From: an uncultured bacterium
GTDB taxonomy: Bacteria > Bdellovibrionota_C > UBA2361 > JANWWW01
DNA length: 12,038 bases
Direction: 5' to 3'
NCBI GenBank assembly: GCA_938038205.1
Contig: CALHSA010000025.1
Coordinates: 1-12,038, forward strand
Shown here piece by piece: positions 4,403-9,450 of this stretch. Position 1 is the stretch's first letter, and the number at the start of each line of letters is the position of its first letter. The notes beneath the pieces are model-generated. The model saw nothing but the letters and a program-made list of their open reading frames with translations, was not told the origin of the DNA and did no database searches. The position numbers and the translations under genes are program-made.

Positions 4403-4729
4403 GTGGTAAAAATTAGGCTCCAAAGATTTGGTAGGCACAAAAGGCCCTTCTATCGAATTGTTGCGGCTGATGAGAGATGCAGAAGAGATGGACGATTTCT
4501 TGAATTAATCGGACACTATGATCCTTTAACAGATCCAATCAGTATAAAGATCAGTAAAGATTTATTTTTAAAGTGGATAAATTTTGGAGCTCAACCATCT
4601 GATACTGTAAGAAAGTTGGTGAACAAAGTGTATCCAAATTTGTTGGATGAAATTGAATCACGTAGGAGACAAAAAATAATATTGGCAAGAAGGAAGAGGA
4701 AAGAAAGACAAAAAGCTAGGGCAGTTTGA
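4403..4729 (+). CDS. rpsP: 30S ribosomal protein S16
   Basis: S16 is a structural protein of the 30S body needed for subunit assembly. The first 80 residues are canonical: VKIRLQRFGRHKRPFYRIVA, then DGRFLELIGHYDP (29-41) and WINFGAQPSDTVRKL (58-72). At 108 residues it is longer than the usual 80-90; the extra length is a very basic tail (about 87-106, rich in Arg and Lys), a kind of extension that varies among S16 proteins. The start is GTG; no other in-frame start fits the conserved N-terminus, and the promoter six bases upstream suggests leaderless translation. The stop overlaps the trmD start by one shared TTGA, so the two are probably translationally coupled. It heads the closely spaced set that runs to kdsB. 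The common partners KH-domain protein, rimM and rplS are absent here. Confidence 0.97.
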   Translation: MVKIRLQRFGRHKRPFYRIVAADERCRRDGRFLELIGHYDPLTDPISIKISKDLFLKWINFGAQPSDTVRKLVNKVYPNLLDEIESRRRQKIILARRKRKERQKARAV

Positions 4730-5403
4730 ATTTTAGCTTCATAACTTTATTTCCTGAAATAATACTCTCCTATTTTTCTTATGGGGTTCTTGGCAGAGCA
4801 GTTAAGTCAAAATTAATAAACGTTCAGGTTTACAATTTAAGAGATTACAGTTTCGATGATTCAAAAACGGTTGATGATTATCCCTATGGGGGGGGACCTG
4901 GAATGCTTTTAAAACCAGAGCCAATTGGCCTTGCAATTCAACACGTCTGTTCTGTAGTTCGAGGAAAGGTCATACTTCTATCATCAACAGGCATTCCTTT
5001 TTCATCATCTTTAGCTCATAAGCTTTCTAAAGAAAAAGCTCTTATTTTCGTCTGTGGTAGATATGAGGGTGTTGATGCAAGAATCTCCGAAATTTTCTCA
5101 GATTACGAAATTAGTATTGGTCAGTTTGTTTTAACGGGTGGAGAAATTGCGGCACTAGCAGTGGCTGATGCAATTAGCAGGTTTATACCTGGCGTATTAG
5201 GCAATTTATCCTCCTCAGAATTAGAATCATATAACGACATAATTAACTTGGAGGCTCCTCATTACACTCGACCGAGCATGTACTACGGCTTAAGCGTGCC
5301 TAAGGTTCTTACTTCAGGTAATCATAAACTTGTAGCTGAATACAAAAGGGTTAAATCAGAGGAACTAAGATCGAAAAGGGTAAGCTATTTGAACAAAACT
5401 TAA
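4726..5403 (+). CDS. trmD: tRNA (guanine-N1-)-methyltransferase
   Basis: TrmD makes m1G37 in tRNAs with G36-G37 from S-adenosylmethionine, preventing +1 frameshifts. The 225 residues show the SPOUT trefoil knot and its signatures: FSFITLFPEI at the start, YGGGPGM (54-60), FVCGRYEGVD (108-117), SIGQFVLTGGE (130-140), SRFIPGVLGN (151-160) and PHYTRP (178-183). It is somewhat shorter than E. coli TrmD, with a compact C-terminal domain. Odd point: the catalytic Asp (D169 of the E. coli and Haemophilus enzymes, in a D-S-F context) aligns with E167 in E-S-Y here, with one extra residue just after. Codons 55-57 form a run of eight G (4888-4895), unusual in such AT-rich DNA. The start is TTG, overlapping the rpsP stop, with a weak AGGG upstream; it ends directly before the next gene. 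Confidence 0.96.
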   Translation: MNFSFITLFPEIILSYFSYGVLGRAVKSKLINVQVYNLRDYSFDDSKTVDDYPYGGGPGMLLKPEPIGLAIQHVCSVVRGKVILLSSTGIPFSSSLAHKLSKEKALIFVCGRYEGVDARISEIFSDYEISIGQFVLTGGEIAALAVADAISRFIPGVLGNLSSSELESYNDIINLEAPHYTRPSMYYGLSVPKVLTSGNHKLVAEYKRVKSEELRSKRVSYLNKT

Positions 5404-6642
5404 ATGAAACCGGTTTGCGTCTTAATTGAGGATGACAGTGATGTTCAGGAATTGATAAAAAAGGAACTGAACGGTGCGGGATTTGAAACTTTGGCATTTT
5501 CTTTGTGGTCCGACGTAAGTCTCTCAAACGTACAAGGAGTTGATGTAATTTTGTTAGATCTGTGGCTTCCAGATGCAGATGGTTTAAGTCTGATTCCAAT
5601 TTTGAAGGAAAATTATGATAGCCCAATAATTGTTCTTAGTGCACAGGGTGACCCTGATACTATAGTTCGAGCGATGAGGCTTGGGGCGGATTATTATTTG
5701 GAAAAACCAGTAAACATTCAAAAACTCCTATCTATTCTACGTTATTTAAACACTGAAAAATTTAAACCCAGTCATTCAGGTGAATTTAGTTTTCGAAGAT
5801 TGAAAATAAAAAATTCGGCGGAAACAGTAAATTTCACTAGGAGATCTTTAACTCAAAGCGTAATGTTTTTTGGTTTGGGTATTCACTCAGGTAAAAAATA
5901 TGGTTTACAAATTGAGCCTGGGAAGAATGGAATTCAATTTCAACCGTTTGGAACTTCACTCTTGTTTCCAATCTCAGCTGCTGAGAATTATCCTGCTGGT
6001 TTGAGCTCAGGTATTAGATTTGGAGAGTTTGAAATAAGAACAGTTGAACATCTATTATCTGCTTTGTGGGGATCTGGCATAACAGATTGTGTCATAAAAA
6101 CTGGGGCTGAAATTCCGATCCTTGACGGAAGTGCAATAGATTTTTTAAAAGCCTTTAAAAAGGTTGGTATCACCGATGTTGGATCCGGTGAGGAGATAAT
6201 TGTTAAAGAAAGCTTTGATCTAAATTTTAGTCATGGAAGGTATTTTCAAGTCTTTCCTAGTGACGATATTGATATCACTTACATCTTGGAATTGGACGGA
6301 GAGAGAATAGTTGCTAGGTATCGAGGAGAGGAATCTTATGAAACTGAAATTGCTCCAGCTAGAACTTTTGCTCAAATTAAAGATGTTGAAACAGCACACA
6401 ATTCCGACTTGGCACAAGGGGGAAGATTTAATAATTTTATTTTGCTTGATGGAGTACACCCCATAAACACCACGTTAAGATTTGATAATGAACCTGCTAG
6501 GCACAAAATTCTTGACCTCCTAGGAGATTTATTCTCTCTGGGCTTCCGTTGGAGGCTTGGGATAGTTGCTCACAAAACTGGACATTCTGAAAACTTAGAG
6601 CTTTTGAAACATCTTAGAACCTTATATCTTGAGGAAGAGTAG
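5404..6642 (+). CDS. lpxC: Response-regulator receiver fused to LpxC deacetylase
   Basis: One uninterrupted 412-residue frame encodes two domains. Residues 1-118 are a complete CheY-like receiver: acidic E9-D10-D11, phospho-acceptor D52 in VILLDLWLPDADGL, switch S79, and K101 in LEKP; the sequence is closest in style to NtrC/NtrX receivers. A linker (about 119-146) leads to a full LpxC, the zinc enzyme that deacetylates UDP-3-O-acyl-GlcNAc, the committed lipid A step. Its catalytic set is intact: E215-H216 (TVEHLLSALWGSGI), DGS 241-243, H367-K368-D371 (RHKILDLLGD) and H394 (KTGH). Zinc ligands by homology are H216, H367 and D371. The ATG follows the trmD stop with no gap and no Shine-Dalgarno, so expression probably depends on read-through or coupling. 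No internal start suits a free LpxC. No AAA+ or DNA-binding domain is present. Regulation of LpxC by phosphorylation is inference; no kinase gene lies in the window. Confidence 0.93.
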   Translation: MKPVCVLIEDDSDVQELIKKELNGAGFETLAFSLWSDVSLSNVQGVDVILLDLWLPDADGLSLIPILKENYDSPIIVLSAQGDPDTIVRAMRLGADYYLEKPVNIQKLLSILRYLNTEKFKPSHSGEFSFRRLKIKNSAETVNFTRRSLTQSVMFFGLGIHSGKKYGLQIEPGKNGIQFQPFGTSLLFPISAAENYPAGLSSGIRFGEFEIRTVEHLLSALWGSGITDCVIKTGAEIPILDGSAIDFLKAFKKVGITDVGSGEEIIVKESFDLNFSHGRYFQVFPSDDIDITYILELDGERIVARYRGEESYETEIAPARTFAQIKDVETAHNSDLAQGGRFNNFILLDGVHPINTTLRFDNEPARHKILDLLGDLFSLGFRWRLGIVAHKTGHSENLELLKHLRTLYLEEE

Positions 6643-6669: not shown

Positions 6670-6963
6670 ATGAACCCAGCCCCTTTGTTAGAGGTCTTTA
6701 AGGGAATATTTGATTGGGTTTATCTTAGAAAAAGCGATATAGTCGGCAAATCTCTTGGTGAGATAATCCAGAACAGTCATTTTGGAACTTTGCTCTCACT
6801 CAAGGTTAGTGGTGTTAAAGATGGCAAGGGAGGCAAGACTTTAATATTAAAATGTGATAATCCTAATGATTTATTCAATGCGAGCTTGATGGTAAATGAA
6901 TTAAAAAAAGCTTTGAGGCGCAAACTGCCATTTAGGTTTGAAATCAAGTTAGTCAGGTCCTAA
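6670..6963 (+). CDS. Small DciA/DUF721-like protein
   Basis: This is a 97-residue protein with a layout like the DUF721 domain of DciA, the protein that in many bacteria helps load the replicative helicase DnaB. Seen: an N-terminal helix (about 5-20), VGKSLGEIIQNSHFGTL (25-41), a strand LILKCDNPNDLFNASLMVNELKKAL (58-82) like the family's paired-strand and helix unit, and a last strand PFRFEIKLV (87-95). The key DUF721 tryptophan and other strict positions are hard to place, so this rests on overall pattern. It is short for DciA and would be a minimal form. It lies 27 bases after the lpxC fusion and 46 before pcnB on the same strand, within the likely operon. The Shine-Dalgarno is poor. If not DciA, it is a small soluble basic protein of unknown role. 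Confidence 0.5.
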   Translation: MNPAPLLEVFKGIFDWVYLRKSDIVGKSLGEIIQNSHFGTLLSLKVSGVKDGKGGKTLILKCDNPNDLFNASLMVNELKKALRRKLPFRFEIKLVRS

Positions 6964-8882: not shown

Positions 8883-8906
8883 AAGCTTCCTATAAGTTTA
8901 GCAACC

Positions 8907-8932
8907 GGTTACGCTTAACCTACTACTTTTTT
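8907..8932 (+). terminator. Possible terminator after kdsB
   Basis: GGTTA-CGCT-TAACC (8907-8920) is a perfect 5-base stem with a four-base loop, 24 bases after the kdsB stop and followed by TTTTTT (8927-8932). Six bases separate stem and T-run, more than in a good intrinsic terminator, so the call is weak. Confidence 0.35.
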
Positions 8933-8988
8933 AACATTTCTTCTTAGGTTATAACTGGCTAAAAAGTTAACTTAAAGTGCTCTGTTGG

Positions 8989-9099
8989 TTTTTTATCCTC
9001 AAAAAAGATTTAAACAGGTTTCAAACTTTAAGACTCTTAGAATAATTAATATGTATTCTACTAATATAAGAGATTTCTAAGTTAGGTCAGGATAAAAAA
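8989..9099. repeat. 11-base inverted repeat enclosing smaller hairpins
   Basis: TTTTTTATCCT (8989-8999) is perfectly complementary to AGGATAAAAAA (9089-9099). The 89 bases between contain a perfect 7-base hairpin (TAGAATA 9038-9044 with TATTCTA 9054-9060, nine-base loop) and an alternative pairing of CTTAGAA (9036-9042) with TTCTAAG (9075-9081). This could be a closed multi-hairpin RNA, but the stems are mostly A-U. Confidence 0.3.
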
Positions 9100-9170
9100 A
9101 AATTCAGGGAAAGGTGGAAGGATTTGTTAAAAAACAAAAATTTGCACATAAAAACTGTTTTTGGCAAAAC

Positions 9171-9200
9171 GGAGCAGTAAAGAATTTAAAGACTTGCTCC
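9171..9200. repeat. GC-containing hairpin upstream of clpP
   Basis: GGAGCA (9171-9176) pairs perfectly with TGCTCC (9195-9200) over an 18-base loop. With four G-C pairs in six it is the most GC-rich stem in this AT-rich gap. No U-run follows on the plus strand, so it is not a simple terminator. Confidence 0.3.
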
Positions 9201-9324
9201 AATTTGGTTACTCTGCTTTAAAACTTTTTAACAGCCACGCTTTTTGTTTCTATTACGTTTTCATGACAAGTACAGAGTAGAGCAAAAGCTATTTTTGTAG
9301 CTCGAGAAAAAAATTTCTACGCAT

Positions 9325-9360
9325 GTTTCTATTCTTAAAAAAGTTACTGTGAATAGAAAT
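9325..9360. repeat. 9-base inverted repeat upstream of clpP
   Basis: TTTCTATTC (9326-9334) pairs perfectly with GAATAGAAA (9351-9359), with a possible G-U pair outside it, over a 16-base loop. Part of the left arm, TGTTTCTATT, also occurs directly repeated at 9245-9254. It lies about 60 bases before the clpP promoter, so a regulator site or an RNA hairpin is possible. Confidence 0.35.
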
Positions 9361-9421
9361 TGTATTGAGAATTTAAATATTTTCATGTTTCCTCGAATAA
9401 CAATGGTAAAGATTTAAACTT

Positions 9422-9450
9422 TTCAGATTAGCTCTCTGATTTTGTATACT
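9422..9450 (+). promoter_or_regulatory. clpP promoter (probable leaderless transcript)
   Basis: TTCAGA (9422-9427, 4/6 match), 17 bases and TATACT (9445-9450, 5/6 match) form a sigma70-like promoter. Six bases separate the -10 box from GTG 9457, exactly the spacing seen for rpsP, so +1 would be the first base of the start codon. An upstream in-frame TTG (9442) would lie before the transcription start and could not be used from this promoter. Confidence 0.55.

Follow-up and report, generated by a model that had tools for sequence, protein, structure and literature searches.

The window analysed here, a stretch of DNA of 12,038 nucleotides, codes for a protein in which a receiver, probably of the NtrX type, is joined to a catalytically complete LpxC. 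LpxC, a drug target, catalyses the committed step of lipid A synthesis, which is usually essential. Judged from its sequence, the window protein is an enzymatic response regulator that descends from NtrX and is no NtrX itself. We consider it likely that NtrY sets the phosphorylation state of residue D52 and so controls LpxC directly. Enzymatic outputs of two-component systems, the NtrYX system and LpxC are each known; a response regulator with LpxC for its output is apparently undescribed, and we could not find an account of one. The REC-LpxC fusion is unmentioned in the open-licence literature searched, and may already stand in domain databases.

Architecture of the fusion protein

The preliminary description had claimed a receiver and a catalytically complete LpxC in one frame. 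This was borne out: every residue that it named was found where it had been placed, and Pfam profiles recognize both domains (Table 1). The receiver of the window protein carries E9, D10, D11, D52, S79 and K101, and its LpxC part carries E215, H216, H367, K368, D371, D375 and H394. We take H216 to correspond to H79 of E. coli LpxC, a zinc ligand in established knowledge of the enzyme, H367, K368 and D371 to H238, K239 and D242, and H394 to H265. The linker between the two domains occupies the place of the AAA+ and HTH parts of NtrX, and its length is 18–47 aa in class relatives and 18–50 aa across the short forms. Neither an AAA+ domain nor a Fis HTH was detected in the window protein by Pfam profiles. 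The protein ends 8 aa past the LpxC domain, with no C-terminal FabZ. The match of this divergent copy to the lpxC equivalog TIGR00325 (147.4 bits) is under the cut-off of 187.25, and the scores of class relatives (222–250) are above it. No second LpxC was found in the window's genome (1.22 Mb in 46 contigs, 81% complete).

Table 1. Coordinates of the fusion gene, its parts and associated genes (window positions, except for the loci in the last row)
Feature	Position	Strand	Evidence or remark
rec-lpxC fusion gene	5404..6642	+	412 aa; one unbroken open frame; Pfam
REC domain, residues 6-112, probable NtrX type	5419..5739	+	PF00072, 70.1 bits; Response_reg cut-off 30.2
D52 codon, predicted phospho-acceptor	5557..5559	+	D in 80/80 fused proteins
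Flexible linker, residues 113-146	5740..5841	+	pLDDT <50 at 118-127
LpxC catalytic domain, residues 147-404	5842..6615	+	PF03331, 194.8 bits; cut-off 27
H216 codon, zinc ligand	6049..6051	+	kept in 82/82 fused proteins
H367-K368-x-x-D371 codons, zinc ligands and catalytic Lys	6502..6516	+	82/82 fused proteins
H394 codon, catalytic His	6583..6585	+	82/82 fused proteins
trmD	4726..5403	+	PF01746; directly upstream of rec-lpxC
HDOD gene and PAS histidine kinase	L115:10814-13047, L124:6191-8403, L126:6326-8548	divergent to rec-lpxC	

The AlphaFold model of the 412-aa protein (pLDDT 86, pTM 0.71), for which the input alignment had 40 rows with few receivers among them, contains a complete receiver fold, LpxC at high confidence and a disordered linker near residues 118–127; it contains no confident interface between REC and LpxC. 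The top Foldseek matches were LpxC structures, with a TM-score by target of 0.92 for Aquifex LpxC (1yh8), and none of the solved chains listed matched both REC and LpxC. The fold and the catalytic and zinc residues are common to the fusion and to LpxC (PF03331; Aquifex 1yh8, E. coli 4mdt), whereas a receiver is absent from the LpxCs of solved structure. LpxC is also fused to another domain in the LpxC-FabZ of Bacteroidota (NF009667), but there the partner is a second enzyme in C-terminal position, whereas in the window protein it is a regulatory receiver in N-terminal position.

The TAA stop of trmD abuts the ATG start of rec-lpxC, which makes translational coupling of the two genes probable. 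In class relatives the fusion is preceded by purA and nusA-infB-rbfA-truB genes, unlike the window with its trmD. The gene rimM is usually found between rpsP and trmD; it is absent from the window, where trmD directly follows rpsP (4403–5403) and is not followed by rplS. Immediately 3' of rec-lpxC lies a 97-aa ORF (6670–6963) with no Pfam match, and in the gap between kdsB and clpP (8883–9441, about 560 bases) there is no plausible ORF and no tRNA or Rfam match. Neither an Rfam scan nor a tRNA scan of the whole window gave a match.

Origin and distribution of the fusion

Sequence comparison with relatives shows descent of the fused receiver from NtrX. Among response-regulator models, NtrX fits the receiver best in all four class relatives (108–126 bits); the window receiver matches NtrX and CseB nearly equally (55 and 57 bits). 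In two relatives, L323 and L327, the match to the NtrX model spans its full length (402 and 395 bits), and LpxC begins only after it. A Fis-type HTH between AAA+ and LpxC scores above the Pfam cut-off in L327 and L333 and more weakly in others, and L213, in genome G057, consists of a receiver, a sub-threshold HTH and LpxC, with no AAA+. The series NtrX-LpxC, REC-HTH-LpxC and REC-LpxC is therefore present in living genomes, and these intermediates support the earlier proposal that the receiver came from an NtrC/NtrX-type regulator minus its AAA+ and DNA-binding parts. The AAA+ domain was probably lost more than once, as the LpxC tree needs four changes for the three groups. NtrX itself (NF051870; Brucella 4d6x, 5m7n) has the same type of receiver, and the fusions of some relatives share its AAA+ and Fis HTH as well. 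Compared with NtrX, the fusion adds a C-terminal LpxC, and the window protein lacks AAA+ and HTH and hence has no DNA-binding part.

The preliminary description had allowed that close relatives might lack the fusion, and the comparison came out in its favour. LpxC was found in 40 of the 45 genomes of the window's own phylum, where every intact copy is a REC-LpxC and single; the copies uncut by a contig end have frames of 412–496 aa with a receiver. LpxC was not found in the other five (G001, G014, G023, G025 and G042; 60–89% complete), which could reflect either absent sequence or real loss. Genome G001, the sole one of the same family as the window's genome, has no LpxC and retains an NtrY-like kinase.

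Mapping of the lineage distribution, a step proposed earlier, placed REC-LpxC or REC-AAA+-LpxC in the own phylum, in the phylum of genome G049 and in more lineages. The G049 phylum has LpxC in 65 of 77 genomes, nearly all with frames of 670–797 aa, and the frames examined contain a receiver, a sigma-54-type AAA+ domain and LpxC. A wider survey for fused LpxC, covering 382 genomes, detected this long form also in further families, represented by G305, G167, G192, G436, G161, G182, G206, G451, G150, G322, G393 and G257, and the short form in G214, G351, G348 and G202. A frame of suitable length does not by itself indicate a receiver fusion, because frames of 430–480 aa can be LpxC-FabZ, and the counts took in only frames with a receiver match. 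One planctomycetotal candidate (L016, a 415-aa frame) is as long as a fusion would be, but was rejected because no receiver forms its N-terminal part.

A tree built from 100 LpxC domains has a branch that separates the 82 fused domains from the 18 unfused ones (SH-aLRT 96). This is consistent with a single origin of the fused LpxCs, to be read with a small outgroup and a window copy that forms a long branch. A fusion labelled Nitrospinota (L002) groups in the tree with those of G451, G182 and G322, apart from the G049 phylum.

The residues of the switch are strongly conserved. Among 80 fused proteins, D10, D52 and a Ser or Thr at position 79 are present in all 80 and K101 in 79, and the LpxC catalytic residues are unchanged in 82 of 82, with an identity of the relatives' fused proteins to the window copy of only about 32–36%. 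The sigma-54 contact motif GAFTGA was found in none of the 42 long forms examined, and the whole AAA+ module has been lost in several lineages. The AAA+ decays while the receiver residues and LpxC stay, so that receiver and enzyme are the pair that is retained. Release of a free LpxC from a conserved internal start was also considered; no such start was found, only 3 of 40 linkers having a start codon with a Shine-Dalgarno sequence, and the idea was rejected.

Candidate kinases for the receiver

NtrY-family proteins are membrane kinases and phosphatases. In 17 genomes, which belong to 11 families, an ntrY gene immediately precedes the fusion and is read in the same direction (G132, G129, G130, G127, G123, G124 and G057; G305, G167, G192, G436, G161, G182, G451, G322, G393 and G257). 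In several of those loci a DUF4390 gene stands before ntrY, as in NtrYX operons, so that the upstream ntrY and sometimes the DUF4390 gene are common to NtrYX systems and to the fusion loci of relatives. The PlrPSR system of Bordetella likewise has a DUF4390 gene, an NtrY-type kinase and an NtrX-type regulator in a row, and PlrP, its periplasmic DUF4390 protein, seems to hold the NtrY homologue back from acting as a phosphatase (PMC13001219). The PlrPSR regulator is without AAA+, like the window protein, but its output is DNA binding, unlike that of the window protein (PMC13001219).

In the own phylum, the window's genome included, ntrY is unlinked to the fusion. NtrY-type kinases are widespread in this phylum, mostly as frames of 690–865 aa, and NtrY_N was matched in 22 of 25 that were aligned. 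A DUF4390 gene precedes ntrY in one Pfam-confirmed case of the phylum (L229). Where the gene following ntrY was scanned, it codes for an FBPase or an M16 peptidase, and no regulator gene was detected next to any true ntrY of the phylum. The NtrX equivalog cut-off was passed in none of its 45 genomes, by a model that may be tuned to alphaproteobacteria.

An orphan NtrY-like kinase had been anticipated in the window's genome, and this expectation held in part. A divergent, NtrY-like kinase of 597 aa (G000:C2:33774-35564) has the H-box HEVKNP and an NtrY-like N-terminal signature, and no receiver or other response regulator was found on its contig, C2; its HATPase domain is above the Pfam cut-off, but HAMP is below it and NtrY_N is not reached. 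The start of this gene is overlapped by a 176-aa gene with no Pfam match, in the position that DUF4390 takes in relatives. The genome being 81% complete, another kinase may be missing from it. A second kinase with no receiver on its contig is the PAS kinase L135, on contig C14. In family f5, a PAS kinase accompanied by an HDOD gene lies beside rec-lpxC in all three loci examined (Table 1); it may be a second input, NtrY being perhaps not the sole one.

Receivers also occur at the C-termini of other proteins of the window's genome. One is a 615-aa GspE/PilB-like secretion ATPase (L151, G000:C15:8572-8907; identified by sequence and BLAST), to which a protein of genome G002 (L131) is similar, with 43% identity. 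Another is a Ser/Thr protein kinase encoded at a contig end (L158, G000:C7:54357-54650).

Proposed control of LpxC by phosphorylation and alternative roles of the receiver

In CheB, PleD and similar proteins a receiver controls the enzyme to which it is fused, as we propose for REC-LpxC; those enzymes serve signalling, whereas LpxC performs an essential step of envelope synthesis. In E. coli, LpxC is controlled through proteolysis by FtsH. A review of 2025 describes proteolysis, MurA activation and transcriptional two-component control of LpxC, and direct two-component control is not among the modes that it covers (PMC12444477). NtrYX, the same two-component family, also bears on LpxC in Rhodobacter sphaeroides and Caulobacter, through an effect on lpxC (PMC7240162, PMC12444477). 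Loss of NtrYX in R. sphaeroides raised lpxC mRNA 8.8-fold and LPS about twofold, and no NtrX site was found at lpxC (PMC7240162). In these bacteria NtrYX acts via transcription, whereas in the fusion the receiver is part of the enzyme.

According to the model that we favour, phosphorylation of D52 would most likely be set by a membrane kinase/phosphatase, NtrY, encoded elsewhere in the genome; for the window's genome, we infer this pairing from the ntrY-fusion operons of relatives. Phosphate would pass from NtrY to the receiver and the activity of LpxC would change as a result, so that in the fusion lineages the sensory module of NtrY would act on the LpxC protein itself. The phosphorylated form may be the one that represses LpxC, a guess made from the alphaproteobacterial NtrYX phenotype.

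It is unlikely, but deserves consideration, that phosphorylation alters the stability of the protein and that the receiver is a phospho-controlled degradation signal read by a protease such as FtsH, Lon or ClpXP. Proteolysis is the classical control of LpxC (PMC12444477), and the LpxC tails of the own phylum, which extend 1–10 aa past the domain, leave no room for a long C-terminal degron, so that control could have moved to the N-terminus. The genes clpP and clpX are also encoded in the window, a fact of little weight alone. However, no degron or adaptor was identified, and short tails are found in some unfused LpxCs too.

We regard it as quite improbable that the receiver is mainly a tether to the membrane protein NtrY and that phosphorylation controls docking or location instead of activity. 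The membrane location of NtrY would fit such a role, and in Neisseria a LapB homologue has been proposed to place LpxC at the inner membrane (PMC12444477); pure docking, however, needs no invariant D52, S/T79 and K101. More doubtful still is a functional phospho-switch with another donor, either a different histidine kinase, for example the PAS kinase on C14, or acetyl phosphate. The absence of a receiver from the contig of that kinase, the separation of the fusion from ntrY in the own phylum and the capacity of Bordetella PlrR, of the NtrX family, to accept phosphate from a second donor (PMC13001219) speak for this possibility, but NtrX-type receivers throughout and the NtrY operons of relatives favour NtrY.

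An inert relic attached to an ordinary, constitutive LpxC is hardly credible: the long branch of the window copy could be cited for it and nothing direct, whereas the phospho-acceptor Asp has stayed invariant at this level of divergence while the AAA+ was lost. The probability that an assembly or frameshift artefact joined two genes is practically negligible, since the fusion is present in all intact copies of the own phylum and in other phyla, and the earlier concern about a sequencing error is rejected by the same architecture in independent assemblies.

If direct control by NtrY is confirmed, many little-studied lineages would have their lipid A output coupled, through the receiver on LpxC, straight to a kinase that senses the envelope. 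The operonic pairs of NtrY and fusion lend themselves to a direct test in vitro. More tentatively, and with considerable doubt, we suggest that the fusions represent a branch of the NtrYX systems that is widespread and undescribed, its response regulator being the very enzyme that commits the cell to lipid A, and that the forms with AAA+ and HTH may be DNA-binding regulator and enzyme at once. If so, signals in the AAA+/HTH lineages could flow both ways, from kinase to enzyme and from enzyme load to transcription. The fusion would also help to explain how NtrYX and LPS are connected in alphaproteobacteria.
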